Source: a virus | IMG/VR virus record: IMGVR_UViG_3300025701_000040 | Coordinates: 1-28,863 of that record | Length of the DNA stretch: 28,863 bases | Strand: one strand, 5' to 3' | In this document: positions 2 through 26,145 of the stretch, one piece after another | How positions within the stretch are numbered: position 1 is the first letter of the stretch | How the letters are laid out: the number at the start of each line of letters is the position of its first letter | Translations under genes and position numbers: made by a program | Notes under the pieces: generated by a model | The model's database searches: none | Told to the model about the DNA's origin: nothing | The model's input: the letters and a program-made list of their open reading frames with translations, nothing else

Positions 2-616
2 TATAACTTTTACAACCCATATTATAGTAGAACTCAAATGTGGAATGATTGGGTATGGGGATACAATTGGCATTCACCTCATTGGTGGTCACCATTTGGA
101 TATGATCGATGGGGATATAATAACTATGGATACGGAATGGGATGGTCTTATAGTTGGAATAATAGACGTTGGTCAAGTAATAGTTGGAATAATCCTTATG
201 GATGGAATAATTATTATGGATGGGGTAACGGATATAATAGGTATAGAAACACTAACGTATCATATCATTCAGGAAGAAGAGGAAGAATAGCACAAACAGG
301 TACAGTAGGTAATACATTAAGCAATAAAGTAATAACAAAGACAGAAAAGAGAAAACCAAGAATAAATAACACGAACAATGATCAAACTATCAGACATAAT
401 TCTAGAAGGATCATCAAGCCCGAAAGCAGTAATAATGGCGGGAGGAGCAGGATCAGGCAAAACATACCTTCTAAACCAGTTAGGGTTAGACAGCCTAACA
501 CAGTTCAACCCAGACAAGTACGTGGAGGATCCAGACCACCCGTATTACAACAAACTAGGACCCGCAGCCAACCAAACGTCCAAAGACGCAATGGCAGCAG
601 CACAACAAAAAACTAG
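2..616 (+). CDS. Asn/Tyr/Trp/Gly-rich protein with Arg-rich tail, 5' end outside window
   Basis: The reading frame is open to the left edge, so the true start lies upstream; 204 residues are visible. The first internal Met is at 38, but the codons before it (YNFYNPYYSRTQ) have the same composition as what follows. The first ~80 visible residues are extremely rich in Trp, Tyr, Asn and Gly (for example GWNNYYGWGNGYNRY). The remainder is rich in Arg, Ser, Asn, Gln and Pro, with no visible catalytic motif. This two-part layout recalls low-complexity, probably exported proteins common in Flavobacteriia; that match is from memory and function is unknown. The last 239 bases (378-616) overlap the kinase gene in another frame. 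The Arg/Ser/Gln/Pro bias continues smoothly through the overlap to the stop, which argues that this frame is also translated. Alternatively, stop-codon loss has extended it into the kinase gene. Confidence 0.6.
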   Translation, partial: YNFYNPYYSRTQMWNDWVWGYNWHSPHWWSPFGYDRWGYNNYGYGMGWSYSWNNRRWSSNSWNNPYGWNNYYGWGNGYNRYRNTNVSYHSGRRGRIAQTGTVGNTLSNKVITKTEKRKPRINNTNNDQTIRHNSRRIIKPESSNNGGRSRIRQNIPSKPVRVRQPNTVQPRQVRGGSRPPVLQQTRTRSQPNVQRRNGSSTTKN

Positions 617-1319
617 TTTCGTTTGGGATACAACTGCTTCAGGAGAAGGCTTCCAGAAGAACTTAGATGAGATTCTCTCTCTAGGTTATGAAGTATATAT
701 GGTAATGGTGTATGCACACCCTATGATTTCTTATGTATCTAACTTTATGGCTAGAGATAGAAATATACCTGGTGATGCAGTATTTTCTACTTGGAGAAAT
801 GTATATACAAAGATAGAAGATTTTAATAAACAACTAAAAGGTAGATTATCGATTTTTGTGTCTGACAGAGGCGGTAAATATAAAAGTGAAGTTGAAGGGT
901 TTGATACAGCTGCAAAAAATGGTTTAAGCGGAGTAAAGGATTACTTACAAAAGTTTAACGATAAAAATGGCGTTGGAGGTTCTTCTTTCTTTAAACCGGT
1001 AGAAATGACTCCTGAAGAAGAAGAAGAGTTTTTAAAACATGTTGGTAGCGTTGATTGGGATAAGGACAATAGATCAGAAGATAAGGCTATTAAACAAACA
1101 TTCTTAAAAGCATATCAGAAGAACGGAGTAGGACCTGGTCAGGATAAACTTAGAGCTGCAGTAACAAAGTATAGAGAGAGTAGTGAAAAGAGAAAACAAA
1201 AAGCTGATGAAGTATTAGATAATATTGTTGAAATGATTTACAGTCCAATATTTCAAGAAAAACTAAAACATTCAACACCGAGAGAAATAGATCAAAAAGT
1301 ACAAGAATTTTTAGCATGA
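378..1319 (+). CDS. P-loop kinase, zeta-toxin/AAA_33-like
   Basis: The 313-residue protein has a clear Walker A motif at residues 22-29 (GGAGSGKT). It is followed by NPD at 44-46, a TSFVWDTTASG strand at about 79-89 (probable substrate-side region), and a basic segment with R126, R128 and R140 (MARDRN, TWRNVY). These resemble phage zeta-toxin-like kinases, which phosphorylate small molecules such as nucleotides or sugar nucleotides; the substrate here is not predictable. The C-terminal ~120 residues are charged and helical. The first ten residues (MIKLSDIILE) form a short amphipathic leader ending in I-L-E, like several other genes here. Because the P-loop must be included, the out-of-frame overlap with the upstream gene is real for any plausible start. 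The stop overlaps the next start by four bases (ATGA), indicating translational coupling. Confidence 0.8.
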   Translation: MIKLSDIILEGSSSPKAVIMAGGAGSGKTYLLNQLGLDSLTQFNPDKYVEDPDHPYYNKLGPAANQTSKDAMAAAQQKTSFVWDTTASGEGFQKNLDEILSLGYEVYMVMVYAHPMISYVSNFMARDRNIPGDAVFSTWRNVYTKIEDFNKQLKGRLSIFVSDRGGKYKSEVEGFDTAAKNGLSGVKDYLQKFNDKNGVGGSSFFKPVEMTPEEEEEFLKHVGSVDWDKDNRSEDKAIKQTFLKAYQKNGVGPGQDKLRAAVTKYRESSEKRKQKADEVLDNIVEMIYSPIFQEKLKHSTPREIDQKVQEFLA

Positions 1320-3217
1320 TAGCATTATACCCGGGAGCATTTAAACCACCTCATAGAGGACATTTTAACTTAGTTAAGGCATTACTTAGTAATACTTACT
1401 CAGGTGCCCTGTATGATAAGGATAATTATAAAGAAAAAGGAGCAGACCTATTAGGTGGCTCTTCTGGTGAAAAACCTAAGATAGATAAGGTTATTATTTT
1501 TGTAGGAGGCGGCGAGAGAAACGGTATAAATAAGGAAGAGTCAATGTCTATATGGAAGATATATGCTTCACATTTAGGTAATGTAGAGATATTAGATGGA
1601 GAAAAGAATCCTATGTTTGCAGCTAAAGATTATGCCCAAGCTAATCCTGAGCAAGAGTTTGCAGCAGTAACAGGTATAAGAGGAGAAAAAGATTTTGTAG
1701 ACTTAAGAAGAGTAACTACATTTAAAAATGCTCCTAATGTAAAAGGACTTGCCTTTGCAGCAGCACCTGATTCAACAACAAGAGCTACAGACTTCCGTAA
1801 TAGTATACTTTCTGGTAACTTAGATAAGATTACAGACTTCTTTCCTTCAGAGCTAAGTAAAGATCAAATACTATCTATACTTACAGATTTAAAAGATAAA
1901 ATTGTAGCCGAAATATTATCAAATAATATTGATGGATTTATTAACGAATATTTTGGTATAGAAGAAAATGAAGAAAGTGAAGTAAAAATAGAAGATACTA
2001 AAGATACTGAAACTAATTCTGCAGTATATACAAAGTATATTGGGTCTATATTAGAATATATGTTAGACGAAGGTATGAATATTCAACCTCTACCTGAAGT
2101 TAAAGTAAGGTATGATGAAGATAATGCTAAAGACTTTTTCGGTAAAACAGCTTATTACGATCCTAATAATAAGGAGATAGTGCTATATGCTACAGGTAGA
2201 CATCCAAAAGATATATGTAGATCGTTTACTCATGAAATGGTTCACCATATACAAAACTTAGAAGACAGACTTCACAATATCCAAACTCAAGACACAAACG
2301 AAGATGATAGATTGCTAGAGTTAGAAAAAGAAGCTTACCTAACCGGAAATATAACATTCCGAAATTGGGAAGATAAGTATAAGAATAATACAGATACAGT
2401 AAAAGAAGTTATGGCAGAAGGAAAATACGATTCTATTACTACCTACCTTACTAATAAAAGTATAGCAGCAGTTAAGAATGGTTTAAATAAAAAAATTAAC
2501 TTCTACAAAGAAGGCTATTTTGGGGATGTTAAAACACAAGATGCTCAAATAGGTATGAAAAAAGTAGTAGAAGATTCGTACCCTATTATGCTTTTTAGTA
2601 TACCAGATGATATAGATAAAGACTTTCAAAAAGAGACTGAATTAGAGTTCGACTTTGAATTAAAAGCTATATTTGTAAAAGGAGTTGACTCAATTATGAG
2701 AAACGGAGGAGCATATAAAGGAGGATTACAAAAGGATGATAGTTGGATTCAACCTAAAATAGAATTAGAGTTTGTATTAGATCCATATAACTTCCCTAGA
2801 GACTTTGAAGAACTATCAGCACAGATTTCTGATGTACTCAGACATGAAATAGAACACCTTACACAAGCAGGCGGTAATGCAAACGGCAAATCGTTCGGCA
2901 AAGGAGCACAGTTTAATGGTGAGTTTGGCACTAAAGAAGAAATGAAATTCCGAACTAAGATTAGAGACGGCATAATAAAGAACGGATCTGCCTATCTAAC
3001 AATACCTTCAGAAATAGATGCTAACATTCAAGGACTGTATTTATCAGCAAAAAAAGCAAAAAGACCATTCGAAGACGTAGTAGATCAATATCTATACGAC
3101 TTCACTAATCAATTCGATGATGACGGTAATCCATTCTTAACTAAACAGGATGTTGAGGATGTAAAAAAAGTATGGTCTTTAAGATTACCATCATTAGGTA
3201 TAAAACAAAAACTATAA
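1316..3217 (+). CDS. Nucleotidyltransferase fused to two zincin-type metalloprotease domains
   Basis: The 633-residue protein has three parts. Residues 1 to ~200 form a cytidylyltransferase-like (NMNAT/FAD-synthetase type) domain: PGAFKPPHRGH contains the HxGH motif (H13, H16), and STTRATDFR at 153-161 fits the C-terminal nucleotide-binding signature. After an acidic linker (~215-235), a first zincin carries HEMVHH at 306-311 with a probable third ligand in EKEAY (337-341). A second zincin carries HEIEH at 510-514 with SEIDA at 565-569 as the probable third-ligand region. The family reactions would be nucleotidyl transfer from NTP and zinc-dependent peptide hydrolysis; actual substrates are unknown. 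The gene starts inside the kinase stop (ATGA overlap), so the two are co-translated. Unlike its neighbours it has no obvious N-terminal [I/L]xE leader; the transferase fold starts immediately. Confidence 0.8.
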   Translation: MIALYPGAFKPPHRGHFNLVKALLSNTYSGALYDKDNYKEKGADLLGGSSGEKPKIDKVIIFVGGGERNGINKEESMSIWKIYASHLGNVEILDGEKNPMFAAKDYAQANPEQEFAAVTGIRGEKDFVDLRRVTTFKNAPNVKGLAFAAAPDSTTRATDFRNSILSGNLDKITDFFPSELSKDQILSILTDLKDKIVAEILSNNIDGFINEYFGIEENEESEVKIEDTKDTETNSAVYTKYIGSILEYMLDEGMNIQPLPEVKVRYDEDNAKDFFGKTAYYDPNNKEIVLYATGRHPKDICRSFTHEMVHHIQNLEDRLHNIQTQDTNEDDRLLELEKEAYLTGNITFRNWEDKYKNNTDTVKEVMAEGKYDSITTYLTNKSIAAVKNGLNKKINFYKEGYFGDVKTQDAQIGMKKVVEDSYPIMLFSIPDDIDKDFQKETELEFDFELKAIFVKGVDSIMRNGGAYKGGLQKDDSWIQPKIELEFVLDPYNFPRDFEELSAQISDVLRHEIEHLTQAGGNANGKSFGKGAQFNGEFGTKEEMKFRTKIRDGIIKNGSAYLTIPSEIDANIQGLYLSAKKAKRPFEDVVDQYLYDFTNQFDDDGNPFLTKQDVEDVKKVWSLRLPSLGIKQKL

Positions 3218-3228: not shown

Positions 3229-3771
3229 ATGGGAAAATTAGTAGATTTATTAGAAGCGTATCCGCTTCCAGAAGTTAAAGAAAAGCCGCCGTATAAGATA
3301 TATTGCGATATGGACGGTGTATTAACAGATTTTGAAACGAGATTTGAACACTTTAGTGGAATGCATCCTCAAGAGTATGAAAAAGCAAAAGGCACTCCAG
3401 CATTTTGGGAATTAATAGACAACAAAATTGGGGTAAGATTTTGGGTAGGAATGGACTTTATGCCGCAAGGTAAAGAGCTATGGGATTTTATTAAACCATA
3501 TCAACCAGACTTATTAACATCTCCTTCAAGGCATAATAATTCTAGGTTAGGTAAAAACCTTTGGGTAAAGAATAATCTAAACCCTAAACCGAAAGTAATA
3601 TTTGCATACTCTGCTGTTAAGCAAAGATATGCTAATGAAAATAGTATACTAATTGACGATAAAAAGTCAAACATTAACGAATGGACAGCTAAAGGTGGTA
3701 TAGCTATTAGATGTAAAAACGGAGATGTTAATCATGTTATAGAAGAGTTAAAGAAATTAGGTTATGAGTAA
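3229..3771 (+). CDS. HAD-superfamily 5'-nucleotidase-like phosphatase
   Basis: From the ATG at 3229 the product is 180 residues. HAD motif I is CDMDGVLTDF with nucleophile D27 and general acid D29. LLTSPSR fits motif II (Ser/Thr), and ILIDDKKSNINEW near the C-terminus fits motif IV (paired Asp) with the usual following Asn. The pattern and size match the 5'(3')-deoxyribonucleotidase-like branch, which removes phosphate from nucleoside monophosphates; substrate is inferred. An in-frame ATG at 3172 would add a basic stretch lying mostly inside the upstream gene. I prefer 3229 because it begins just after the upstream stop and gives MGKLVDLLEAY, a leader of the same [I/L]xE type as neighbouring genes. 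The next gene overlaps this stop by eight bases. Confidence 0.75.
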   Translation: MGKLVDLLEAYPLPEVKEKPPYKIYCDMDGVLTDFETRFEHFSGMHPQEYEKAKGTPAFWELIDNKIGVRFWVGMDFMPQGKELWDFIKPYQPDLLTSPSRHNNSRLGKNLWVKNNLNPKPKVIFAYSAVKQRYANENSILIDDKKSNINEWTAKGGIAIRCKNGDVNHVIEELKKLGYE

Positions 3772-4744: not shown

Positions 4745-5008
4745 ATGAAAAACTCTGAATTAATAAACGCAATCAAAGAAGTATTAGCAGAAAAAAAGAG
4801 ACCTGGATTATGGGCTAATATAAACGCAAAGAAAAAAAGAGGTGAGAAAGCTTCTCATGGTAATTCTAATGCCCATAAAGATGCAGTATCAGCAGGTAAT
4901 GCTATGAAAAAAGAAGGTGAAGATACCAAGCATCAAGGTTCTAACTATAAATGGCCAATGTCAAAGGCTACTAAAGATAGAAAAGATGCAGATAAAAAAG
5001 ATAAGTAA
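4745..5008 (+). CDS. Small basic virion-type protein
   Basis: The 87-residue protein is strongly basic and Lys/Ala/Gly-rich. After a helical leader, MKNSELINAIKEVLAE, comes KKRPGLWANINAKKKRGE, a motif I recall in small proteins and protein tails of marine T4-like phages. There is no enzymatic signature. The leader ends in L-A-E, which fits the T4 prohead protease consensus ([I/L]-x-E); a basic mature peptide of ~70 residues would be plausible as a DNA-associated head protein. That role is inference. It starts five bases after the membrane protein and is followed 12 bases later by the unknown 209-residue gene. Confidence 0.6.
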   Translation: MKNSELINAIKEVLAEKKRPGLWANINAKKKRGEKASHGNSNAHKDAVSAGNAMKKEGEDTKHQGSNYKWPMSKATKDRKDADKKDK

Positions 5009-10267: not shown

Positions 10268-11578
10268 ATGAAAGAAGTAGAAAAACTTATACTTGAAGCT
10301 TATAGCGCTGTATTAACAGAGGATGATTTTGCTCAAGATAAAAAAAATACATATAAGATGCAAGATCTTCCTAAATCTCTACAGGATAGATTAGAAGCAC
10401 AGCATGGGGAATTTCATAAGAATGACTTTGTGTCATCAGATATGACTACCTACTTCAAAACTAGCTCTGTAAATAAAGAGACTGGATCTATTGGACATAC
10501 GATTATTAAGCTACCTTCATTTGAAAAAATGTATTCTGATTATAATGATATTGTGAAAGATATTAAAAACCTAATGAGATCAGATGATGTTAGACAAGAT
10601 GCAGCTGCAAGAGAGTTATTTGAATTAATTAAGACTAATTTTAGAAAATTACAAAGGTACTTACGTACCGAAAGACCTGAGCAGTACGCTATGATTAGAA
10701 TGCAAAGTTCCTTACAAGAGCTTGTAAATATGTTTAACTCACACGTCAACATATTAAAAGAAGAATCATTGAGTAGAGACGCTAAGACAAACACTATCAC
10801 AGAGGAAACTAGAAGATACTCTACATATGAATTAGATCTTTTAGATTTAATATCTCATCATAGATTTAATAACGATTTTGAAAAACTTAGTCCTGAAGAT
10901 CAAGAATGGGTCAAAGCAGATGCTAAGAAAAGAAAGATGGTTAAAGAAGCTATAGAGAAGTATAAATCTAATCCTCAAATGAAAGTCATTTTAGAAGGAA
11001 TGCTTGATGAATTAGAAGACGAACCTACAGAAGAACCTACACCAGAGGAAGAACCAGATGAAACTGCACCAGCAGAAACTGTACTAGAAGATGCGACAGA
11101 TAAAATACTAGGTAAGTTTCCAACAGTTAGAGCTGCAATAGTAAAATTACAGACAGAAGATTTTAAAGAATTTGTAGAGTCTATTGATTGGATTTCTCCA
11201 AGGCCTACATCATTTAGAGTTAACCTAAAAAATGGTCAAGATTACACTCTTAAATGGACAGGTAAAACATTTGAAGCTCAAATTCTAGGTAAAAGATACA
11301 TACTATCTAATATTGCAGAATATCAACAAGCATTAGATAAATTAGCTATACTCTATAAAGAAGCTCCTTTAACAGGTGCAGGCGAAGGTGAAGCAGCAGA
11401 TTCCGATACCGGAGGTTCCGGAGGCGGTGGTGGTGGAGATTTTCCTGGCGAAGAAGGTGGTGGAGACGCCGTTGATGATTTAGGAGGAGAAGAAGGTGGA
11501 GAAGAACCAGCAGCAGAACCAGCAGACTTAGGAGGAGAAGAAATAGACTTCGAAGACGGAGCAGAACCAGAAGCATAA
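10268..11578 (+). CDS. Putative internal/virion structural protein with Gly/Glu-rich tail
   Basis: The 436-residue protein begins with the leader MKEVEKLILEAYS (I-L-E at 8-10). It continues with a helical region (85-235), a Glu/Pro-rich linker at about 249-270 and a small beta-rich domain at ~313-345 (SFRVNLKNGQDYTLKW, TFEAQILGKRYIL). It ends in a low-complexity tail of Gly, Glu, Asp and Ala (368-436) that includes six consecutive Gly. I recall the small beta domain in hypothetical structural proteins of marine phages, without a known function. It starts four bases after the giant gene and is followed by a run of TAA triplets. The leader suggests head packaging and cleavage by the prohead protease, as inference. 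Confidence 0.65.
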   Translation: MKEVEKLILEAYSAVLTEDDFAQDKKNTYKMQDLPKSLQDRLEAQHGEFHKNDFVSSDMTTYFKTSSVNKETGSIGHTIIKLPSFEKMYSDYNDIVKDIKNLMRSDDVRQDAAARELFELIKTNFRKLQRYLRTERPEQYAMIRMQSSLQELVNMFNSHVNILKEESLSRDAKTNTITEETRRYSTYELDLLDLISHHRFNNDFEKLSPEDQEWVKADAKKRKMVKEAIEKYKSNPQMKVILEGMLDELEDEPTEEPTPEEEPDETAPAETVLEDATDKILGKFPTVRAAIVKLQTEDFKEFVESIDWISPRPTSFRVNLKNGQDYTLKWTGKTFEAQILGKRYILSNIAEYQQALDKLAILYKEAPLTGAGEGEAADSDTGGSGGGGGGDFPGEEGGGDAVDDLGGEEGGEEPAAEPADLGGEEIDFEDGAEPEA

Positions 11579-16654: not shown

Positions 16655-17509
16655 ATGAAAGTAAAACACTCAAAATTTCGAAATACAGGTCTTATCTTTG
16701 AATTGCTAGTTAAGCAAATCGCTGCGGATACTCTATCTAAAAAAGATTCTCCAGCTTTAGCTATACTCAGAAAGCACTTCACTGGTAAAACAGTACTTGT
16801 AAAAGAGTTTAAATTATATGAATTTATACTTAAGAATAAAGGCGTAGGACAGAATAAAGCTGAATCTATACTATCAACTATTACTGAGATATCTAGAAAG
16901 TTTGATCAAAAGATTCTTAAAGCTCAAAAATACGCATTAATATCTGATATTAAAGAAGCATATAAGAGTGATGAATTTTTCAATATTCAATCAACAGATT
17001 ATAAAGCATTAGCTTCACTATACTGTTTATTAGAAGCTCAGAATAATAATGACTTAGTAGATCCTAATTTATTGATTAATTTTAAATCAACTTTATTAGA
17101 GCATTTAACTACTAAGAAACAAAACAACACAGACGTTAAAGATACTTTAATAGAAGAATACTCTAAGTACGATAAAGACTTAAAGCTATTAGCATTTAAA
17201 ATATTACTTGAAAAATTTAACGATAAATATAAAGACCTACTCCCGGAACAAAAAAGAATCTTGAGAGAGTTTATTACTTCTGTTAATTCTACAACTAAAC
17301 TACGTACTGTAGTAAATGAAGAGTTAGAATTAATAATTAAAGAAGTAAAAAAATCTACAAGCAAAGTAAAGGATAAGGTAGTGTTAATAAAATTAGAAGA
17401 GATAACTAAGTCTATTAAACCTCTTACAAATAAAGAGAAGATATCAGATACTCATCTAATTAACTTATTACAATATTACGACTTAGTACAAGAATTGAAA
17501 AGACTGTAA
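16655..17509 (+). CDS. Hypothetical helical protein in prohead-core gene position
   Basis: The 284-residue, Lys-rich, almost entirely helical protein has no Cys-rich site, membrane segment or catalytic motif. The N-terminus (KHSKFRNTGLIFELLVKQI) resembles conserved hypothetical proteins I recall next to portal genes in marine T4-like phages. It lies between portal and protease genes, where T4 carries core genes 67 and 68, so a role in prohead core assembly or as an internal protein is plausible but unproven; I see no sequence similarity to gp67 or gp68. The stop overlaps the next start by one base (TAATG), indicating translational coupling. Confidence 0.65.
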   Translation: MKVKHSKFRNTGLIFELLVKQIAADTLSKKDSPALAILRKHFTGKTVLVKEFKLYEFILKNKGVGQNKAESILSTITEISRKFDQKILKAQKYALISDIKEAYKSDEFFNIQSTDYKALASLYCLLEAQNNNDLVDPNLLINFKSTLLEHLTTKKQNNTDVKDTLIEEYSKYDKDLKLLAFKILLEKFNDKYKDLLPEQKRILREFITSVNSTTKLRTVVNEELELIIKEVKKSTSKVKDKVVLIKLEEITKSIKPLTNKEKISDTHLINLLQYYDLVQELKRL

Positions 17510-17697
17510 TGAAAAGAGCAGACCTAGTATCTTTAGTTAGAGAAGTAATACAAGAGTTAGATGAAGCTAACGTAACTGGAGGATCAGCATCATTCACAGC
17601 TGGTACTGGAGCTACTTACGCTACACCTAATTTTCTAGGTAAAGCTACAAAGGCTAAAAAGACATTAAAAAAACAAGGATATAAAGAAATAAAATGA
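17509..17697 (+). CDS. 62-residue protein resembling the capsid protein N-terminal arm
   Basis: This short gene is supported by coupling on both sides: TAATG with the upstream gene and ATGA with the downstream gene. Residues 1-19 are an amphipathic helix (MKRADLVSLVREVIQELDE). They are followed by ANVTGGSASFTAGTGATYA, then a basic C-terminus (GKATKAKKTLKKQGYKEIK). The middle aligns with residues 59-79 of the major capsid protein in this window (EANTNTQGGAGFTAGSGENW), including the Glu-Ala that in the capsid protein is the probable protease cleavage point. It may be a core or decoration peptide that copies the mature capsid arm, or a cleaved assembly factor. The position corresponds to T4 gene 67, which also encodes a small core protein. 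Confidence 0.7.
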   Translation: MKRADLVSLVREVIQELDEANVTGGSASFTAGTGATYATPNFLGKATKAKKTLKKQGYKEIK

Positions 17698-19994
17698 GAA
17701 AAGTAACTGCAACAGAAAAGTACAGAGCTGTAAACGAAGGACAAATGTCCGAAGGAGAGTTCGTAAGACAAATGCGATTAGCATTTCCTCAGCATATTAA
17801 CCAATTTAATGGATATCACGACTCAGTAGCTATCCTTAGAAATAGAGGCGTTCTTTCTGAATCTACTCTTGAAAAGATGAACCCTGACACAGTATCAGAT
17901 GATTCTCTTAGAAGAGCTTTAGACATAGAATTAACAGCTATGGGACATGATCCTGTTACTTGCTCAGACGGAGAAGCACAAACAAAAGCAAAAGATAAAG
18001 CTTTAAAAAACTTAAGCAAAGATCCTTTACATTACTATAACCTATTGGCTCAGGAATCATCTAAAGTAGATAAAAACGATAAGATGAAAGAAACTAAGCC
18101 TGGAGCGAAAGATAAAGACACCTTCAACGGTATGAAGAAGGCTGATTTAAGAGAAGAGGTTAGTGAAAGTAATCAAGAAGAATCTATTGCAGATTTTATC
18201 ATTAAACACTATACAAACCCTAAAACAGGTAAGAGTTTAATTGATGATGAAATTATAGGAGACTTCTTTAGAACTCACCCTGAATCAAAAGATGAACAAG
18301 ATCCTCAAGATGCTTTAGATAACTTCGAAGAGTACCTATCAGTAAATTATGAAATGCCTGGTGACTATATGCAAGAAAAAGTTGCTGCATCAGCAGATGA
18401 CGTAATTGATCCTGCTGACTATGGAACTATAGGTGCTAACTATTTAAAAGGATTTGAAAAAGCACATTCACTTAATCAAGATCAATTAGAACAGCTTGGT
18501 CGTAAAATAGTAGATCAACTATATAAAGGAGACTTTGATGCTGCTAAAGAAAAGCACATGCAAGAAAATAACGTAAGTGAAGAGTCTAAGCCATTCGCTC
18601 CTGGAGATATGTTTTCTACCGATTTCGATTATAAAGGGATGTTAAAATATGCTACTACAGTATCATGTAATACTCCTTTATCTACATTACAGGCTTTGTT
18701 TGATTCTTTTGAAGACGTAAATTACCATAGAGAAGCAAGTCACTTATCTTTTGCTATTGAAGAATTAGAAGAAGGTAATAAAGAAGGATGTCAAGAACAT
18801 ATAGATGCTTTTAAGAAAGAAGTAAAAGTTACTATTAAGAATATAATTCAAGAAAACGGAGGATTTGTTAGAGAAGCAGAAGTTGAAGAAGGTTTTAACG
18901 ACCACTTATCATCTGACGATCTTAGAGATTTAGCTCAACACTTTCAAAATAACGGTAATGCAGAGGCAGCTAAACATATAATGGCAGCAGCAGCAAGTTG
19001 TGATTCAGAACCAGAAGCAATTGCAGAAGGTCGTAAGAAGACTAAAGGAGGAAAAGTAGTAACTGAAAACGATTACGAAACAGGAGGCTATGTAGAAAGT
19101 ATGGGTCCTAAATTTGACAAAGGTGTCAATTTCTTAATCAAAGCTTGGGAAGAGTGGAAGATGGGTCCTATGACAGAACCTGGAATGATAGAATTCGCTA
19201 AAAAAGATATACTTGGTTACTTAGAAACTCAATTTATGGTTGAGAACTTAGAAGAAAAGAAAGGTAAAAAATTAGAAGAAGAATACGAACCAGGATCTAT
19301 TGCTCCTGAAGATTTATACTACTCTGATAAGCACGGTAGATTAGTTGCTATGGACGATGTAGACGATAAGTATCATGACAGCCTAGAATTAGTCTACAGT
19401 AAAGGAGACACGATCGAAGGTCCTATGGATGAAAACAAAGGTAAAGATCATGACGGCGACGGAGATGTAGATAAAGACGATTATAAACATGCTAAAGATA
19501 AAGCTATTAAAAAAGCAATAGGCAAGGATGAAATCGTAAAAGAGCATCTTAAAGCTATTATAACTAAAGTATTAGCAGATAAAGAAACATTATCGGAAGC
19601 AGCAACTCAAGAACTTTCTAAATTTGCAGATGACTATTCAGGATTTGATGGAATGAAGTCTTCTATAAATGGACTAGAAAACATCGTAACAGATATAGAG
19701 CAATACTTCGATAAGACTAGAGCTAAGATACAGAAAATATACGATACATTAGGAGAGATTAGAAATGAAGAAGGCTTAAAGGTAGGTGGATTTTTAGCAC
19801 CAGCAATAGAACAAGCATTCATTAAAGATCTTAAACCAGTAATTAAAATGGGCTTTACAAAAGGATTAGATCAACCTAAAGTAAAAACAATCTCTAGTGC
19901 AGAAATTGATATGGCAAAGAGACAGCAAGGTATATCAGAATTCGAAGCAGAGCCTAAACAAACAGTTTTTGGTTTAAACGAAAAGAAGAAATAA
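17694..19994 (+). CDS. Large acidic multidomain protein with EF-hand loop, putative core/virion protein
   Basis: The 766-residue product begins with MRKVTATEKYRAVNEGQM followed by a small helical module (SEGEFVRQMRLAFPQHI, NGYHDSVAILRNRG) that I recall from marine phages. Acidic helical modules and linkers follow. At residues 585-596 there is a canonical 12-residue EF-hand loop, DHDGDGDVDKDD, with Asp at loop positions 1, 3, 5, 9 and 12, Gly at 6 and Val at 8, flanked by helices; calcium binding is likely. The C-terminal ~130 residues are helical and end in EPKQTVFGLNEKKK. No enzymatic motif was found. Coupled to the 62-residue gene and one base before the protease gene, it occupies the prohead-core region; a scaffolding or internal-head role is inferred. 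Confidence 0.7.
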   Translation: MRKVTATEKYRAVNEGQMSEGEFVRQMRLAFPQHINQFNGYHDSVAILRNRGVLSESTLEKMNPDTVSDDSLRRALDIELTAMGHDPVTCSDGEAQTKAKDKALKNLSKDPLHYYNLLAQESSKVDKNDKMKETKPGAKDKDTFNGMKKADLREEVSESNQEESIADFIIKHYTNPKTGKSLIDDEIIGDFFRTHPESKDEQDPQDALDNFEEYLSVNYEMPGDYMQEKVAASADDVIDPADYGTIGANYLKGFEKAHSLNQDQLEQLGRKIVDQLYKGDFDAAKEKHMQENNVSEESKPFAPGDMFSTDFDYKGMLKYATTVSCNTPLSTLQALFDSFEDVNYHREASHLSFAIEELEEGNKEGCQEHIDAFKKEVKVTIKNIIQENGGFVREAEVEEGFNDHLSSDDLRDLAQHFQNNGNAEAAKHIMAAAASCDSEPEAIAEGRKKTKGGKVVTENDYETGGYVESMGPKFDKGVNFLIKAWEEWKMGPMTEPGMIEFAKKDILGYLETQFMVENLEEKKGKKLEEEYEPGSIAPEDLYYSDKHGRLVAMDDVDDKYHDSLELVYSKGDTIEGPMDENKGKDHDGDGDVDKDDYKHAKDKAIKKAIGKDEIVKEHLKAIITKVLADKETLSEAATQELSKFADDYSGFDGMKSSINGLENIVTDIEQYFDKTRAKIQKIYDTLGEIRNEEGLKVGGFLAPAIEQAFIKDLKPVIKMGFTKGLDQPKVKTISSAEIDMAKRQQGISEFEAEPKQTVFGLNEKKK

Positions 19995-19995: not shown

Positions 19996-20574
19996 ATGAC
20001 ACAACTATTAGTAGACGTAACACCATTTAAACCAGTAATTAGAGAGTCCAAAACTAAACCTGGAGTATATGAGGTAGAAGGAGTATTACAAAGAGCAGTT
20101 GCTCAAAACCAAAACGGCCGTACATATAGTAAAGACATTCTATTAAGAGAGTCAGAAAGATATACTAAAGAGTTTGTTGAGGTTGGTAATGCTTTTGGAG
20201 AACTTGATCACCCTGAGTCTCCCGTTGTCTCCTTAAAGAACGCATCACACGTAATAAAGAAGTTATGGTGGAAAGGAGACGACCTTATGGGACGTGTTGA
20301 GCTATTAAATACACCAGCAGGTAATATCGTTAAAGAAATCTGTAAAGCAGGTCATACTATTGGTATCTCATCTAGAGGTACAGGATCAGTTCAACAAACA
20401 AACGAAGGAGCTTTAGAAGTTCAAGACGACTTTGAATTAGTATGTTGGGACTTTGTATCTAATCCTTCTACTCATGGAGCATTTATGAACCCTATAGCTT
20501 TACAAGAAGGTAGAGTAAAAGTAAACAAGTATAGCGGATTAGATTCTATCATAAACGATATATTAAGAGCATAA
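19996..20574 (+). CDS. Prohead core protease, gp21-like
   Basis: The 192-residue serine protease resembles T4 gp21 (the herpesvirus-assemblin-like fold), which cleaves scaffold, capsid and internal proteins after [I/L]-x-E during head maturation. Visible signatures are NGRTYSKDIL near residue 40, GELDHPES with catalytic His72, and HTIGISSRGTGSV, where S125 or S126 is the nucleophile. DDFELVCWDFVSNPSTHGAF is typical of the C-terminal part. It is close in length to T4 gp21 (212 residues). The stop and next start overlap by one base (TAATG). Its own likely substrates in this window are discussed under the leader-peptide finding. Confidence 0.92.
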   Translation: MTQLLVDVTPFKPVIRESKTKPGVYEVEGVLQRAVAQNQNGRTYSKDILLRESERYTKEFVEVGNAFGELDHPESPVVSLKNASHVIKKLWWKGDDLMGRVELLNTPAGNIVKEICKAGHTIGISSRGTGSVQQTNEGALEVQDDFELVCWDFVSNPSTHGAFMNPIALQEGRVKVNKYSGLDSIINDILRA

Positions 20575-21080
20575 TGAAATTACATTCTATTTTACTAGAA
20601 AGCGAGGAGAAGCAATTAGCACTTCAGCTAAAACAAGCTTTAGATAAGGAAATGGAAGACGGTCAATTAGACGAGTCTTTAACTGCACTTGGATTATTAA
20701 GTTGGTTGCTTGCATCTAATACAGTAATAGACATATTAGGTAAGTATGCAGCAAAAGCTTTAAGAAAGTTAAACTTAGATAAAGCTGCTGATAAAGCAGA
20801 AGCAATCCACCATTGGGCTCATAATAATGAAAAAGCAATGGTTAATGTAATTGCCCAAGTTATATCTCCTTTTGTTAAAGATAAAAATAAAAGACAAAAC
20901 ATTGCAAAAGGTTTATTTATCGCAATTTTAGCCGGACTTGGAGTTAAAGCCGGAATTGGAGCACTTAATGCTATTAGAGGAGCAAACGTTGGTTCCGCAG
21001 CACTATCACTTACTAAAGGTGCTTTGAAAGGTAGAGATATAGCCAATGTTGGTAAAGAGATAGTAGGTTCAATGGTGTAA
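20574..21080 (+). CDS. Small hydrophobic protein with two membrane segments, putative internal head protein
   Basis: The 168-residue protein opens with the leader MKLHSILLESEE (L-L-E at 7-9). It has two hydrophobic stretches, at about 35-56 (SLTALGLLSWLLASNTVIDIL) and 111-134 (AKGLFIAILAGLGVKAGIGA), separated by a basic, Ala-rich helical region. The C-terminus is Gly/Ala/Lys-rich. I do not recognise a family. A membrane-active protein encoded between protease and scaffold genes and carrying a packaging-type leader could be an internal protein ejected into the host envelope, but this is inference. It is translationally coupled to the protease by TAATG, so the two should be made together. Confidence 0.65.
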   Translation: MKLHSILLESEEKQLALQLKQALDKEMEDGQLDESLTALGLLSWLLASNTVIDILGKYAAKALRKLNLDKAADKAEAIHHWAHNNEKAMVNVIAQVISPFVKDKNKRQNIAKGLFIAILAGLGVKAGIGALNAIRGANVGSAALSLTKGALKGRDIANVGKEIVGSMV

Positions 21081-21082: not shown

Positions 21083-21829
21083 ATGCAAAAGTTAATTACT
21101 TTTGGATGTAGTTATACAGCAGGGTTTTTAAATGATGGTAGCATTCCCCTAAAAGGTGCATATAGAGACTACTACGATTGGAGAGGCGGGAACTTTCCTA
21201 AAATATACCCAGAATTACTATCAGAGCAAAATAATCTACAACTACATAATCATGCTAGTCAAGGTTCTTCCAATTCTTTACAATTTTGGAAAGCAACAGA
21301 ATCATACCACACATGGAATAAAGACGACATAATAGTATTTCAATCTACATTCGTTCAAAGACTTGAATTTTTAAACTTTAGTAACGGTGGATATGAATGG
21401 CATATACTTGAATCAGATCCACATCCATCAACGGAAAAAACATTTAATCCGTCTATTTCATATAAAGCACAAGAAGAGCTTCTTATTAGTAGAGACAACA
21501 TATTACAAAATAGAGAAGTAATAGCATACGTAAGAGCAATGAAAGCATTGACAGATGCTAAGCAGTGTCACTTTTTATGGGTACCTTTTGATACCTATTC
21601 ATTAGAGTACGTATTAGATAGAGAAAAAGAATGCAGAGACGTAATAGACTTAATGGTAACTCATACACCGAAAGACGGTACTATGACGATTATAGACGAT
21701 TTGCCTGAAGAAATTAAAGGTACAATTACTAAAGAAACAAATGGTATAGTAGACGATAATCACTATGGTGAAATAGGTAATAAAACACAAGCAGAAATTA
21801 TTTCCCCCTACTTACGTAGGTTTTTGTAA
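21083..21829 (+). CDS. SGNH/GDSL-type hydrolase-like protein
   Basis: The 248-residue protein has the SGNH-hydrolase blocks in order. Block I is ITFGCSYTAG with the nucleophile Ser10; the ASQGSSNS stretch supplies Gly61/Asn64 of block III; block V is IVDDNHYGEIGN with Asp224 and His227 spaced as D-x-x-H. Such enzymes hydrolyse ester bonds, for example removing acetyl groups from polysaccharides; the substrate is unknown here. There is no signal peptide. It sits two bases after the small membrane protein, between protease and scaffold genes, an unusual place for an esterase. It may be a moron or a virion enzyme acting on host surface glycans. A 110-base gap with regulatory features follows. 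Confidence 0.75.
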   Translation: MQKLITFGCSYTAGFLNDGSIPLKGAYRDYYDWRGGNFPKIYPELLSEQNNLQLHNHASQGSSNSLQFWKATESYHTWNKDDIIVFQSTFVQRLEFLNFSNGGYEWHILESDPHPSTEKTFNPSISYKAQEELLISRDNILQNREVIAYVRAMKALTDAKQCHFLWVPFDTYSLEYVLDREKECRDVIDLMVTHTPKDGTMTIIDDLPEEIKGTITKETNGIVDDNHYGEIGNKTQAEIISPYLRRFL

Positions 21830-21939: not shown

Positions 21940-23025
21940 ATGGCAAACAAAGATTTATTCAAGCAAGCTATTGCTGAAGCTAAGTCTGTACGTGAAGCCG
22001 CTATTGCTAACGCCAAGGAAGCTTTAGAAGAGACTTTAACACCTCACTTAAAAGATATGTTAGCTGCAAAACTACAAGAGATAGATAACGATACTCTTGA
22101 AGAAGCATCAGCAACATTCGAAGCAGAGGAAGTAAAAGAGTCAGAATCTAAAGAAGACAAAAAAGACGAAGCGATTGAGGAAAACGACGGATTTACTGCA
22201 GTTGAAGAAGCTGAAGAAGACGAAGAACCAGTAGAGGATGATTCAGAAGAATCTGATGACGACGCTGAAGACGCAATCGAAGAACCAGGAGAAGAAGTAG
22301 AAGGAGAAGAAGAAATCGACGGAGACGAAGATTTATCTAACCTTTCTGTTGACCAGTTCAAAGATATGATTAGAGACATTATTTCTGCAGAAGTAGGCGG
22401 CGGCGCTGAAGTAGATGATATGGACGCTGGTGATATTGAAGGAATGGGCGATGAAGCTCCAATCGAAGAACCAGGTATGGAAGGTGAACCAGAAATGGGC
22501 GCTGACGAAGAAGAAATTGACTTAGACGAACTATTAAGAGAGTTAGAAGGAATTTCAGAAGGTGATGAAGATGGTAGTAAAGATGAAGACGCAATGGAAG
22601 AATCTACAGAAGTAGAGGTATCTCATGAAGCTGATTCAAAAGATGCTAACATTAACAGAACTATGAAAGAAGATCTAGCAGAAGCAATGACTACTATCGA
22701 AACTCTAAAATCAGAGTTAAACGAAGTAAACATTCTTAATGCAAAGTTACTTTATGTTAATAAAATCTTTAAGGCACAGAACCTTTCAGAATCTCAAAAA
22801 GTTAATGTTATTGCTGCTTTTGATAAAGCAGAAACAGTTAAAGAAGTAAAATTAGTATTCGAAACTGTAGTTGATAACGTTGGAACTAAAAAAGAGACAA
22901 CAATTAAAGAACACAAAGGATCAGCTAGTAAAGCAACTGGCATCACGGCTAAAAAGCCTGAAGTCATTTCTGAAGTATCTGATGCAGTCTTAAGAATGCA
23001 AAAATTAGCAGGAATAATTAAATAA
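21940..23025 (+). CDS. Prohead core scaffold protein, gp22-like
   Basis: The 361-residue acidic scaffold has an N-terminal helical segment, MANKDLFKQAIAEAKS, with the I-A-E-A protease-type site at residues 11-14. A long Glu/Asp/Ser-rich middle (about 50-225) is followed by a helical, coiled-coil-like region (~235-320). The C-terminus is AVLRMQKLAGIIK, a signature I recall from gp22-like scaffolds of marine T4-like phages. It assembles the inner core on which the capsid shell forms and is then degraded by the gp21-like protease. It lies directly upstream of the capsid gene, as in T4, behind a 110-base leader with two inverted repeats. Confidence 0.85.
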   Translation: MANKDLFKQAIAEAKSVREAAIANAKEALEETLTPHLKDMLAAKLQEIDNDTLEEASATFEAEEVKESESKEDKKDEAIEENDGFTAVEEAEEDEEPVEDDSEESDDDAEDAIEEPGEEVEGEEEIDGDEDLSNLSVDQFKDMIRDIISAEVGGGAEVDDMDAGDIEGMGDEAPIEEPGMEGEPEMGADEEEIDLDELLRELEGISEGDEDGSKDEDAMEESTEVEVSHEADSKDANINRTMKEDLAEAMTTIETLKSELNEVNILNAKLLYVNKIFKAQNLSESQKVNVIAAFDKAETVKEVKLVFETVVDNVGTKKETTIKEHKGSASKATGITAKKPEVISEVSDAVLRMQKLAGIIK

Positions 23026-23045
23026 TTAAATTTAAAGAAATTAAC

Positions 23046-24623
23046 ATGGAAATTAATAACCTATTAGAAGACGCTAGAGGAACCCACAAAGTAATGTTGG
23101 AAGACTCTGCAAAACTTGCTACAAAGTGGCAAGCTTCAGGATTATTGGAAGGATTAGAAGGAAAGAAAGCTTCTAACATGGCCGTAATCTTAGAAAACCA
23201 AGCTAAGCAAGTAGTTGCTGAAGCTAACACAAATACTCAAGGTGGTGCAGGCTTTACTGCTGGATCTGGTGAAAACTGGGCTGGAGTTGCTTTACCATTG
23301 GTAAGAAAAGTATTTGCTCAAATCGTTGCTCAAGATTTCGTATCTGTTCAGCCAATGTCATTACCTTCAGGTCTAGTATTTTATCTAGATTTTAAATACG
23401 GTGATGCTTCAGCTAACAGAGCAGATGGAGACAACTTGTACGGTAACGTAACAGAAGGTGCAACAAAAATGATCAAAGATGCAGATGTATCTGGAGGTCT
23501 TTATGGAGCTGGACAATTCGGTTACTCTATCAACAACACTTCAGGAACTTTTACTCCAACAGCAACTGCAGCAGGAACTTTAGCAGATGTAGGATTTGAT
23601 GCTGAATTCGCAACTGGATCAGTAGAAACAGTAGAAGTAGATTTAGCTGGAAAATCAGCTGACCTATTAGCTGCAAGAGCATTCGTACTTAAAGTAGGAG
23701 CTGAAATTGTATCTGTATATCCACAGTTTACTACAGTAGCAGGAGACAAAGTAACTTTTGTTACTGCTGCAGGTAAAGTAACAGGAGATGTAACAGTAAT
23801 ATACTCTAAGCAAACTAAAGATAACGACAGAGGAGACTTTGAAGCAGATTCAGACAGAGCAGTAGATACTTCTATTTCTATTCCAGAAATCGACGTTAAA
23901 CTACAAAGTGAGGCAATTGTTGCTAAGACTAGAAAGTTAAAAGCACAATGGACTCCAGAATTTGCACAAGATTTAAATGCTTATCATTCAATTGATGCTG
24001 AAGCAGAATTAACATCTTTACTATCTGAATATATCTCTATGGAGATCGATTTAGAGATCTTAGATATGTTGATCTTAGAAGCTAACACAACTGAAAGATG
24101 GTCTGCACAAAACAATAAAGTTTGGGCAAACGGAGCATGGTCTTCTGCAGGATCTGATTTTTACAATACTCAAGGACAATGGTTCCAAACATTAGGAACT
24201 AAAATCCAAAAAGTATCTAACAAGATTCACCAGAAAACATTAAGAGGTGGTGCAAACTTCCTAGTATGTTCTCCAAGTGTTGCTACAATCCTAGAATCAA
24301 TTCCTGGATATGCTGCAGCTACTAACGGTGATCAAGATCAATTCGCAATGGGCGTTCAGAAAGTTGGTGCTTTGAATAACAGATTCCAAGTTTATAAGAA
24401 TCCTTACATGACTGAAAATACAATCCTTATGGGTTATAGAGGAAGTCAATTCTTAGAAGCAGGAGCAGTATATTCTCCATATGTACCATTAATGATGACT
24501 CCATTAGTATACGATCCAGAAACCTTCACTCCAAGAAAAGGTTTAATGACTCGTTACGCTAAGAAGATGATCAGACCAGAATTCTACGCGAAAGTATTTG
24601 TATCTGATTTAGGTCAGATATAA
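23046..24623 (+). CDS. Major capsid protein, gp23-like
   Basis: The 525-residue precursor matches the T4-type major capsid protein (gp23, 521 residues) in size and motifs. The propeptide ends around VVAE-AN; cleavage after Glu59 would parallel T4 gp23 (after Glu65) and give a mature N-arm starting ANTNTQGGAGFTAGSG. Family stretches include WAGVALPLVRKVFAQIVAQD, VQPMSLPSGLVFYLDFKYG, the highly conserved KTRKLKAQWTPEFAQDLNAY, and the C-terminal YDPETFTPRKGLMTRYAKKM. The region of about residues 165-260 (Thr/Ala/Val-rich, beta) looks like a surface-domain insertion. It is followed by an intrinsic terminator, as expected for a very highly expressed gene. Confidence 0.96.
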   Translation: MEINNLLEDARGTHKVMLEDSAKLATKWQASGLLEGLEGKKASNMAVILENQAKQVVAEANTNTQGGAGFTAGSGENWAGVALPLVRKVFAQIVAQDFVSVQPMSLPSGLVFYLDFKYGDASANRADGDNLYGNVTEGATKMIKDADVSGGLYGAGQFGYSINNTSGTFTPTATAAGTLADVGFDAEFATGSVETVEVDLAGKSADLLAARAFVLKVGAEIVSVYPQFTTVAGDKVTFVTAAGKVTGDVTVIYSKQTKDNDRGDFEADSDRAVDTSISIPEIDVKLQSEAIVAKTRKLKAQWTPEFAQDLNAYHSIDAEAELTSLLSEYISMEIDLEILDMLILEANTTERWSAQNNKVWANGAWSSAGSDFYNTQGQWFQTLGTKIQKVSNKIHQKTLRGGANFLVCSPSVATILESIPGYAAATNGDQDQFAMGVQKVGALNNRFQVYKNPYMTENTILMGYRGSQFLEAGAVYSPYVPLMMTPLVYDPETFTPRKGLMTRYAKKMIRPEFYAKVFVSDLGQI

Positions 24624-24647
24624 GCACTAGCTTAGATTAATATTAAG

Positions 24648-24671
24648 AGAGGCCTTCGGGCCTCTTTTTTT
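24648..24671 (+). terminator. Intrinsic terminator after major capsid gene
   Basis: AGAGGCC-TTCG-GGCCTCT forms a perfect 7-base-pair stem with a UUCG tetraloop, directly followed by six more T residues. It lies 24 bases after the capsid stop and is the only textbook terminator I see in the window. Confidence 0.93.
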
Positions 24672-24677
24672 ATGTGC

Positions 24678-24685
24678 TATTTATA
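24678..24685 (+). promoter_or_regulatory. Candidate late promoter box restarting transcription for neck genes
   Basis: GCTATTTATAATAAAAT begins six bases after the terminator T-tract and 23 bases before the ATG at 24701. The terminator followed by a box strongly suggests a new transcript for the neck genes. Confidence 0.6.
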
Positions 24686-24700
24686 ATAAAATCTATATTA

Positions 24701-25846
24701 ATGGCTAATGTAACAATTTGGGATGGTAATGCGAATTTTAATTCTGGCAGTGCCACACCTTTCGGATTCTACGACAGTGATCTTGACTTTCAAAATGATG
24801 CTATAAAAGTAGCTAAATTCTGTGGTACTAGATTAGGGTACCCTTTAATGGACGTAGAACTACAAGATACATCTTTCTTTGCTTGCTTTGAAGAAGCAGT
24901 AACAACTTACGGTAATGAAGTATTTCAGTATAAGATTCGAGAAAATTACCTTAGCTTAGAAGGTTCATCAACTGGTAGTAGAATGAACAACCAATTAGTT
25001 GATCCAACTATAAGCAGGGTTATACAGATGTCTAAACATTACGGTACTGAAGCAGGAGTAGGAGGTAATGTTACCAAGTATTCGGGTTCATTAGATATTG
25101 TAGGAGGTAAACAAAGCTACGATTTAGATGCATGGTCAAAAGATAAAGGTATACAAGGAGGAATAGAGATAAGAAAAGTCTTTCATGAAGCACCTCCTGC
25201 TATTATGAGATACTTTGATCCATATGCTGGTACAGGAACAGGAGTACAATCGTTAATGTCAGCATTTGACTTCGGTAAATTCTCCCCAGGTATTAATTTT
25301 ATGTTAATGCCTACATCATATGACGTTCAATTACTACAAGCTATTGAATTTAATGATCAAATTAGAAAGTCAACATATTCTTTTGAGATAGTAAACAGTC
25401 AACTTACAATATTCCCAGTTCCTACTAATACAGGAAGGTTATGGTTTGAGTATTATCAAAATCAAGATAAGAATCAGGTCAATTATAACAATGCTTCTGA
25501 TGTTATTACCAATGTAGGTGAAGTTCCTTATACTAATCCTCAATATAGTAACATAAACAGTGTGGGTAGACAGTGGATATTCAGATATGCATTAGCATTA
25601 TCAAAAGAACTATTAGGATACATCAGAGGTAAATATACAACACTACCAGTACCGGGTTCTGAAGCTACTTTAAATCAAGCTGACTTATTAGCTGATGCTA
25701 GAACTGAAAAAATAGAGCTAATGACTAGCTTAAGAGAGATGTTAAACGCAACAGGTCGTGCAGCACAGTTAGAAGCACAAGCTAAAGAATCTGAAGATGT
25801 AGAAAACATCTTAAAATCAGTACCAATGGTAATATACGTAGGATAA
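24701..25846 (+). CDS. Neck / head-completion protein, gp13-like
   Basis: From ATG 24701 the product is 381 residues. An in-frame ATG at 24674 is rejected because the extension (MLFIIKSIL) would lie across the candidate promoter box. The N-terminal part (LDFQNDAIKVAKFCGTRLGYPLMDVELQDT, then CFEEAVTTYGNEVFQYKI) resembles neck proteins of marine T4-like phages, where an adaptor attaches to the portal. The centre is beta-rich; the C-terminal part (about 285-365) is helical (WIFRYALALSKELLGYIRGKY). It probably forms the head-tail connector. The stop overlaps the following start by one base (TAATG). The gp13 assignment rests on family resemblance and on the gp14- and gp15-like genes downstream. 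Confidence 0.7.
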   Translation: MANVTIWDGNANFNSGSATPFGFYDSDLDFQNDAIKVAKFCGTRLGYPLMDVELQDTSFFACFEEAVTTYGNEVFQYKIRENYLSLEGSSTGSRMNNQLVDPTISRVIQMSKHYGTEAGVGGNVTKYSGSLDIVGGKQSYDLDAWSKDKGIQGGIEIRKVFHEAPPAIMRYFDPYAGTGTGVQSLMSAFDFGKFSPGINFMLMPTSYDVQLLQAIEFNDQIRKSTYSFEIVNSQLTIFPVPTNTGRLWFEYYQNQDKNQVNYNNASDVITNVGEVPYTNPQYSNINSVGRQWIFRYALALSKELLGYIRGKYTTLPVPGSEATLNQADLLADARTEKIELMTSLREMLNATGRAAQLEAQAKESEDVENILKSVPMVIYVG

Positions 25847-26145
25847 TGAAATTAATTCCACTACTATTAGAGTTAGACTATAAGACATTTGAAGCTATGG
25901 TACAAATACAGTACGGTGAAGATGGTCCTAAGGGGTATGATGATGCTATTAGAGCTTTACCTGGTGTAACCACAGTAACATTAGCTTCTGAAGATAGTGA
26001 ATTGAAGGTAGCTAGATATAAAATAAAAATCATCACTCAAAAAGAAGCTATAGAAGCTTTTAAAGCATTTAAACTCAATATTAAAGAGAAATACAGTGAT
26101 ATAGTTTCAGTTAAGGTAGGAGAAGAAACAATTGAAGAAAAATAG
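25846..26145 (+). CDS. Small alpha/beta protein, 99 residues, in neck operon
   Basis: After the leader MKLIPLLLELDYK (L-L-E at 7-9) the protein reads as a small alpha/beta domain: a strand GVTTVTL, a strand ARYKIKIIT, a helix (KEAIEAFKAFKLNIKEKY), then a strand IVSVKVGEETIEEK. This is a ferredoxin-like order of secondary structure. I recall similar small proteins beside phage neck genes but no function. It is coupled to the upstream neck gene by TAATG and lies three bases before the gp14-like gene, so it is made with the head-completion set. It may be a minor head component packaged through its leader. Confidence 0.6.
   Translation: MKLIPLLLELDYKTFEAMVQIQYGEDGPKGYDDAIRALPGVTTVTLASEDSELKVARYKIKIITQKEAIEAFKAFKLNIKEKYSDIVSVKVGEETIEEK

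Follow-up and report, generated by a model that had tools for sequence, protein, structure and literature searches.

Candidate T4-type capsid-targeting leaders on unrelated proteins of an uncultured Flavobacterium phage relative

The IMG/VR record IMGVR_UViG_3300025701_000040 is a fragment of 28,863 bases, referred to here as the window, and is a virus record by the IMG/VR classes. It comes from an uncultured T4-like myovirus, kin of a Flavobacterium phage, and holds the head module of that virus. A first-pass annotation had noted that unrelated proteins encoded here begin with nearly the same short peptide, and these candidate capsid-targeting leaders are the subject of this analysis. The major capsid protein gene (23046–24623) has 65% identity to its homologue in Flavobacterium phage vB_FspM_immuto_2-6A (MW353175, hereafter immuto), an isolate grown on Flavobacterium sp. 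LMO8, and 51.5% identity to that of Microcystis phage Mel-JY01. From the kinship with immuto, one may guess that the host is a flavobacterium. Relatives of the capsid protein are encoded in at least 600 IMG/VR stretches, so this is a common group of uncultured phages. A literature search, with subscription journals mostly outside it, found no title or beginning of an abstract on capsid-targeting leaders in this group.

The clade set consisted of the whole annotated immuto genome and eleven related IMG/VR contigs; the comparator genomes were Mel-JY01, RM378, P-HM2, T4 and Melnitz-3. Against the immuto annotation, the gene caller recovered 221 of 239 stops, 207 of them with the same start, and called 9 extra genes.

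Head genes and leader-like N-termini in the window

The six leader peptides first listed, those of the genes starting at 378, 3229, 10268, 11892, 20574 and 25846, are all present at these positions on the + strand (genes are named below by their start). Among the weaker forms that had been proposed, three can be placed in related leader classes: 4745 and 17509 are of the MK[NR]-x-x-L type, and 11598 is of the MENNFDLRKFLTEN type. The scaffold N-terminus does read MANKDLFKQAIAEA. The remaining form, 4383, was dropped: it fits the pattern tested below, but its N-terminus is conserved along with its family (57/60) and is therefore indistinguishable from a coiled coil. Fractions in the following list are homologues with the motif [IL]xE at the N-terminus; leader classes were assigned by position-specific scoring matrices (PSSMs).

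378–407, +: leader MIKLSDIILE of a zeta-toxin-like kinase (gene 378–1319); 32/32
3229–3255, +: leader MGKLVDLLE of a HAD 5'-nucleotidase (gene 3229–3771); 63/67
4745–4780, +: leader MKNSELINAIKE of a small protein, basic with net charge +10 (gene 4745–5008); 8/9, class A by PSSM
10268–10297, +: leader MKEVEKLILE of an acidic protein (gene 10268–11578); 10/10 N-terminal homologues
11598–11636, +: leader MENNFDLRKFLTE (gene 11598–11888); class B, a class common to body-unrelated families
11892–12008, +: shared N-terminal module of about 39 residues, MSLIDRVILE followed by WSYKTKKGYPDINSQEDMALFESIFGFEL (gene 11892–13127)
17509–17556, +: leader-like N-terminus MKRADLVSLVREVIQE (gene 17509–17697); class A by PSSM
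19996–20574, +: prohead protease of gp21 type, Peptidase_S77 (Pfam E 6.8e-32; phrog_207 E 2.6e-50)
19996–20046, +: possible propeptide of this protease, ending VIRE/S; [IL]xE within residues 9–24 in 56/56 homologues
20574–20600, +: leader MKLHSILLE (gene 20574–21080); 26/27
21940–21978, +: scaffold N-terminus MANKDLFKQAIAE(A); 49/65 identical over 16 residues, 5 more with one-residue differences
22990–23022, +: scaffold C-terminus LRMQKLAGIIK, a motif that closes 27 distinct scaffold C-termini
23046–23069, +: major capsid protein N-terminus MEINNLLE; [IL]xE at residue 8 in 66/66
25846–25872, +: leader MKLIPLLLE (gene 25846–26145); 49/49

The gp21-like protease of the first-pass annotation is thus the S77 peptidase at 19996–20574. 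Relatives of it were found in 10 of the 11 related records, and no Peptidase_S78 was found in the window. Sites of the same kind occur on the head proteins themselves. The capsid protein has [IL]xE also at residue 35 (65/66) and residue 50 (58/66), with MEINNLLE failing the strict spacing used below, and in 52 of 56 homologues of the protease the motif is followed by S, A, G or T. T4 gp21 itself has a similar site near its N-terminus, according to passages of PMC9026906. Together these sites on capsid protein, scaffold and protease are consistent with a single protease that processes them all.

The ORF at 21083–21829, which separates 20574 from the scaffold gene, has no relative in the fetched loci; its start, FGCSYTAG, resembles SGNH-type proteins. 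The gene at 1316–3217 opens with MIALYPGAFKPPHRGH, has no leader, and has an immuto homologue annotated as nicotinamide mononucleotide adenylyltransferase.

Frequency and conservation of the leader pattern

In the 10-residue leader of T4 IPIII, residues 4 and 7 are important for targeting and residues 8 and 10 for processing (PMC9026906, section 10). The kinase leader MIKLSDIILE has L4, I7, I8 and E10 – the IPIII register – as do most of the peptides first listed. The strict pattern hydrophobic-x-x-hydrophobic-[IL]-x-E, with Glu at residues 8–14, was therefore chosen from the published IPIII positions 4, 7, 8 and 10, and expected counts were taken from internal windows of the same proteins. 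Seven of the 27 called genes in the window match (378, 4383, 10268, 11598, 11892, 20574 and 25846) versus 0.3 expected, while 3229, 4745 and 17509 do not. The enrichment extends beyond the window: 13 of 239 genes match in immuto (2.5 expected), and 38 of 794 families in the clade (8.3 expected, p 2.6e-14, with one random member per family). Two of the contigs are weakly enriched individually, G008 with 2/41 (p 0.019) and G011 with 2/48 (p 0.094). Counts in the comparators are 11/291 for T4 (2.5 expected; ipII, ipIII and gp24 are among them), 8/270 for Mel-JY01 (2.8), 3/157 for RM378 (2.6), 4/242 for P-HM2 (1.5) and 4/224 for Melnitz-3 (1.6).

In the T4 record (NC_000866), gp2, the DNA end protector (76061–76885), and gp61.1 (18966–19130) have starts that are leader-like by the strict pattern, MAIFQIINES and MKTFKEFIKED. 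Two adjacent genes of Mel-JY01 (W01; 60276–60926 and 60923–61105) share a near-identical leader-like start with a similar continuation, MIKLKSLL[KQ]EIISDRVWHLTT.

Within the clade, the pattern is concentrated around the head genes. Of the 364 genes that lie from –26 to +6.5 kb relative to the protease, 66 match, versus 29 of 1104 outside; by family, the figures are 17/101 near the protease and 15/552 elsewhere (p 3.7e-7). Some carriers away from the head region recur between genomes, for example those with MSLINEIKQILSEV and MIKLIDLLTES. The peptides are short and amphipathic, and the carrier 20574 is a putative membrane protein according to the first-pass annotation, so N-terminal helices directing proteins to the inner membrane of the host or to some compartment of infection, with no relation to the capsid, would be one explanation. 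It is an improbable one: the clustering with head genes, the similar start of the capsid protein in all 66 homologues and the leaders inside fused proteins (below) fit it poorly.

The motif is also conserved among relatives: in four families together, 170 of 175 homologues have [IL]xE. In the kinases the Glu is invariant in all 32, position –2 is I or L in 32 and position –3 is L or I in 31, and the four residues past the Glu are strongly variable; an alignment of 19 sequences has E10 invariant and L4 and I8 nearly so. The kinase body matches Pfam Zeta_toxin (E 1.2e-10) from residue 12. Searches with the kinase gave no match among phages, none in PDB and no relative in bacterial genomes.

The start of the kinase gene is also overlapped by a second reading frame. 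A W/Y/N-rich ORF with a basic tail (2–616, +, open at the 5' end of the window) overlaps it at 378–616, and this long dual-coding overlap covers the first 79 kinase codons. The overlapping frame is open for 77–79 codons in 14 of the 18 kinase relatives examined (of 43 loci). Third-base T in the overlapped kinase codons is 0.01–0.18, compared with 0.36–0.51 downstream and 0.31–0.45 in four kinase relatives without the overlap.

In the nucleotidase 3229, the match to phrog_2643 begins at residue 20. Three of the four exceptions to [IL]xE resemble wrong starts, and one has Asp (contig G004, MNTSIIDLLDAH). Four of the seven nucleotidases fetched from outside the clade (pf16, Cr30, OLIVR1, Atu_ph07) begin at or near the catalytic DxD and have no leader; that of HTVC008M has a different N-terminus, and that of phiM5 has a long extension, incomplete in the stretch examined. 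The Melnitz-3 nucleotidase opens with MKSIVEVTSINE, perhaps a related leader, since it includes [IL]xE.

The protein of 25846, with 55 homologues among the fetched records, has a predicted structure (45 sequences, mean predicted local distance difference test score, pLDDT, of 87.6) with a ferredoxin-like order of strands and helices. In this model residues 1–10 have a mean pLDDT of 58, and each later ten-residue block has 87–93. Structurally it comes closest to viral proteins that are unnamed or uncharacterised (best E 9.2e-7), with weak likeness to S6, eEF1B and ACT domains and no PDB match at E <=0.001. It is probably a small ferredoxin-like protein with a structural role; therefore the leader alone does not imply injected cargo. 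In two families, then, the leader appears to lie outside the folded domain, by the model for 25846 and by comparison for the nucleotidase. The gene at 16655 is different: its [IL]xE, present in 36/36, belongs to the protein's own domain, and it was rejected as a carrier.

The motif is absent from the N-termini of 1316 (0/41), 3764 (0/67), the portal (0/34) and 26149 (0/59).

Leader sharing, fused genes and the 11892 module

For a test of leader sharing, 672 of 2983 proteins were removed (shorter than 70 residues, on the minor strand or at locus edges), leaving 2311 proteins in 438 body families. Exact 8-mers common to families with unrelated bodies were counted as pairs by start position: 33 at residues 1–4, 26 at 5–8, 14 at 9–12, 4 at 13–16 and 1 at 17–20, so the sharing is confined to about the first 27 residues. 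In this filtered set there were no shared 8-mers in the ten later windows tried and none at the C-terminus. The unfiltered counts (60 pairs at 1–4, 77 at 1–8, 35 at 11–18, 16 at 21–28, 10 at 31–38, 2 at 41–48 and 0 from 61–68 onward) were set aside; many of the displayed examples were short minor-strand ORFs or gene fragments.

One conceivable source of such peptides is chance or composition – an AT-rich genome yields starts rich in K, I, L and E, and a reader picks the best of them. Bare [IL]xE is indeed common, and it was rejected as a signal as too frequent genome-wide. We consider this source very improbable, given the excess of the strict pattern over internal windows in the window and the clade, the disappearance of exact sharing past residue 27 or so, and the conservation in the four families.

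Individual cases illustrate the sharing. MKLSELILE opens both a kinase relative (locus L195) and a 20574 relative (L379), and KLSDIILE is present in the window kinase and in the relative of 25846 in contig G008. Synonymous codons differ in the shared leaders, in the examples printed, which points to selection on the peptide.

The phage group appears to use several leader classes. Class A is of the MKKSQLRQIIKEAL type, class B of the MENFDLKKFLVENKLTTNS type and class C of the MKLSDIILE type. Class D is MKKQILSEQFRRMQKLAGIITE, found near the N-terminus of immuto gene 188 (RMQKLAGII) and, as the variant RMQFLAGII, of gene 41; its core is the motif that closes the scaffold C-termini of the group. 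Class E is the module of about 40 residues of 11892. By PSSM thresholds that were trained on the clade and that 3229 escapes, 7 of 27 window genes have classes A–E, and 9 have some class or the strict pattern. Among the 212 immuto genes of at least 60 residues these numbers are 12 and 17; immuto genes with leaders include 176, 177, 179, 184, 188 and 193–195. Classes A–E were found in 0/193 genes of this size in P-HM2, 0/194 in Melnitz-3, 0/142 in RM378, 1/230 in Mel-JY01 and 2/241 in T4. In a held-out test the class C PSSM gave 24 N-terminal hits versus about 0.5 expected (2441 held-out families, ten overlapping splits summed), a signal that is real but consists of few hits. Applied to T4, the same PSSM ranks gp24 third of 291 genes.

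Leaders also persist in fused genes; immuto gene 192 and G001 36342–37934 are among those that encode fused proteins. One case concerns the domain at the C-terminus of 10268 (residues about 263–375). In relatives this domain closes proteins that differ greatly in size and composition, and in many fetched loci it is encoded immediately before the 11892-type gene. Some small proteins of relatives have it directly behind a leader (MKKSDLKKIILEAYVEVLREAE, G010). In immuto (841 residues) and contig G001 (659 residues) other segments precede it in a fusion, and the leader has been kept in what is now an internal position (immuto SKSELKEIMLEAYIEVLQ, G001 SKKELKEIMLEAYVEVLQ); the immuto one alone passes the PSSM threshold. 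Class B leaders are internal in G001, G003, G010 and L370, without a starting Met in G010 and L370, and over classes A and B there are three internal leaders in all that lack Met at the start. What is retained therefore seems to be the peptide itself rather than a start signal; an internal copy could be either a cleavage site or a docking site.

The module of 11892 extends the sharing to about 40 residues. A search with 11892 found 64 loci, 52 of which match within residues 1–130 only, 49 of these within residues 1–65 only; module identity is up to 97%. It is found on 45 distinct proteins in nine body clusters. The bodies match different PHROG families (1462, 8438, 12709 and 2496), and in an hhalign comparison of the nine (36 pairs) only clusters 3 and 5 were linked (93%, about 77 residues), with all others at 9.7% or less. 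Two of the bodies have cyanophage homologues, and the module is lacking from the N-termini of the five records fetched, three of which are annotated T4-GC 533. The polymorphic cassette adjoins the terminase gene.

The 11892 module resembles a fixed 5' part joined to exchanged 3' parts, as would be expected if shared starts arose at the DNA level, by recombination or from translation signals, independently of protein function. That cause is very improbable: the synonymous codons differ in the shared leaders printed, and leaders of classes A and B are still present within fused genes, in three cases lacking a starting Met.

The label 'nuclease-like' given to 11892 rests on a short motif spotted by eye, a stretch resembling D...[SE]xK that recalls PD-(D/E)XK nucleases and can be seen in all nine body clusters. 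There was no nuclease family among the Pfam matches of 10 proteins, and no library match confirms PD-(D/E)XK. No PDB match was found, and the AlphaFold model was poor (mean pLDDT 43) and was left out of the fold search. Searches with the body gave no relative in bacterial genomes and 11 loci in viral contigs, none more distant than before. Shielding of the phage from its own nuclease by 7-deazaguanine DNA was considered and remains an idea, with DpdA in just 2 of 12 records besides immuto. The DpdA-type genes of immuto (L081, 34089–34883) and G002 (47665–48462) have 75% identity; there is a weak match in G001 and none in the other nine phage records or the window.

Interpretation and comparison with known systems

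We consider it likely that the leaders are T4-type capsid-targeting propeptides, cut by the phage's own S77 protease, and that the carriers are trapped in the head. That they form a set of T4-type capsid-targeting leaders is well supported at the level of sequence, by motif, spacing, conservation, modular reuse and the presence of the protease gene; that the S77 protease cuts them is probable. As the head assembles, a leader of 9–17 residues would attach its protein to the core of the prohead or to the inner shell, the protease would cut after [I/L]-x-E before DNA packaging, and the carrier bodies would thereby be trapped. The enzyme-like carriers (zeta-type kinase, 5'-nucleotidase, 11892 family) might then enter the next host with the DNA, by extrapolation from T4 IPI and Alt as described in parts of PMC3012670 and PMC9026906.

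The first-pass annotation had proposed a T4-like capsid-targeting signal, and the elements of such a signal – hydrophobic spacing, [IL]xE, unrelated bodies – stand as properties of the sequences. Its further suggestion, that the whole set is a packaged and injected arsenal, goes too far: the capsid protein, the scaffold and the probably structural 25846 carry the signal too. An injected arsenal is a plausible hypothesis. The additional leader classes, the polymorphic 11892 bodies and the leaders inside fused genes go beyond what had been proposed.

A number of observations weigh against the capsid-targeting interpretation. The nucleotidase 3229 is missed by both the strict pattern and the PSSMs, and its case is made by family conservation. 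Bare [IL]xE is weakly enriched (94 versus 74.3 expected with Glu at residues 7–13, one member per family, 794 families). It occurs within residues 4–16 in families not counted as carriers: 16655, 17694 (20 of 38 homologues; left unassigned) and, in some members, the terminase (4/24), 24701 (3/62) and 26636 (4/57), the last three being taken as leaderless. The carrier 17509 is weak, with [IL]xE within residues 4–16 in 7 of 17 homologues and [LV]V[RK]E in the others listed. Net charge past residue 10 is positive in just 4 of the 9 window carriers and sizes range from 62 to 436 residues, so these are not the small basic bodies of the T-even internal proteins (IPI–III). Neither ipII nor ipIII is among the eight best T4 genes of the class C PSSM, and the gene at the top is presumably DNA ligase.

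Other such observations bear on whether the leaders are removed at all. They could instead be docking helices for the head or for another part (scaffold, portal, tail) that are retained, with [IL]xE capping the helix or taking part in binding. In 25846 the Glu is followed in most cases by I, L or V, and the first strand of the fold begins almost at once, which makes cutting at this site uncertain. Helices of class A adjoin baseplate genes with no evident link to the head (MKLDLLKKLIKEAV); since that helix fits the pattern, the pattern by itself is no proof of head targeting. The G004 nucleotidase has Asp for Glu, and in T4 an Asp10 stops cutting but not targeting (passages of PMC9026906). The invariant Glu of the 32 kinases amid varying neighbours argues against retention, as do the sites in the capsid protein and the protease, and we regard retained helices as fairly unlikely compared with cleaved propeptides.

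A larger picture can be offered tentatively, as possible though doubtful: a large injected-effector system of interchangeable parts in which a few leader 'zip codes' are set on fast-changing cargo (kinase, nucleotidase), with an 11892-type cassette by the terminase gene that joins a constant entry module of about 40 residues to swapped nuclease-like warheads, fused genes as polyproteins split by the head protease, and one class copying the scaffold C-terminus RMQKLAGII. Particles of these phages may carry a varied load of proteins. T4 capsid targeting has so far been known from few coliphage internal proteins; here it is readable from sequence on many unrelated ones. If right, this would give a rule to predict packaged, early-delivered genes of uncultured phages, provide new leader tags for loading heads (for example MKLSELILE, MENFDLKKFLVEN and the 40-residue 11892 module), and draw attention to a polymorphic protein family, possibly injected, that is encoded next to the terminase.

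The closest known parallel is T4. As described in parts of PMC9026906, PMC3012670 and PMC5694885, the leaders of IPI, IPII, IPIII and Alt are, like those here, short N-terminal propeptides with hydrophobic residues at the equivalents of positions 4, 7 and 8 and with Glu10. The T4 internal proteins also share [L/I]-x-E, an S77 protease (gp21) and one leader on divergent bodies (passages of PMC9026906). Unlike T4, the group described here has several leader classes, putative enzymes among the carriers and mostly non-basic proteins, as well as leaders inside fused genes and a constant module of about 40 residues on nine body clusters. T4 gp24, annotated as cleaved by gp21, matches the strict pattern, and the capsid protein here starts similarly; the gp24 and gp23 propeptides differ in that they belong to shell proteins and not to cargo.

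Two other phages offer likenesses, that of P1 in its published description. P1 takes the anti-restriction proteins DarA and DarB along in its head; DarA is believed to undergo proteolytic processing, and DarB has an N-terminal packaging signal of which 30 residues suffice for a reporter (parts of PMC9024508 and PMC12810830). In the giant phage SPN3US, a prohead protease removes N-terminal propeptides, and two diverged proteins have identical N-termini; several propeptides there exceed 100 residues, compared with 9–17 here (passages of PMC5694885). P1 DarB and SPN3US thus show or suggest that N-terminal packaging signals exist beyond T4 (parts of PMC9024508 and PMC5694885).

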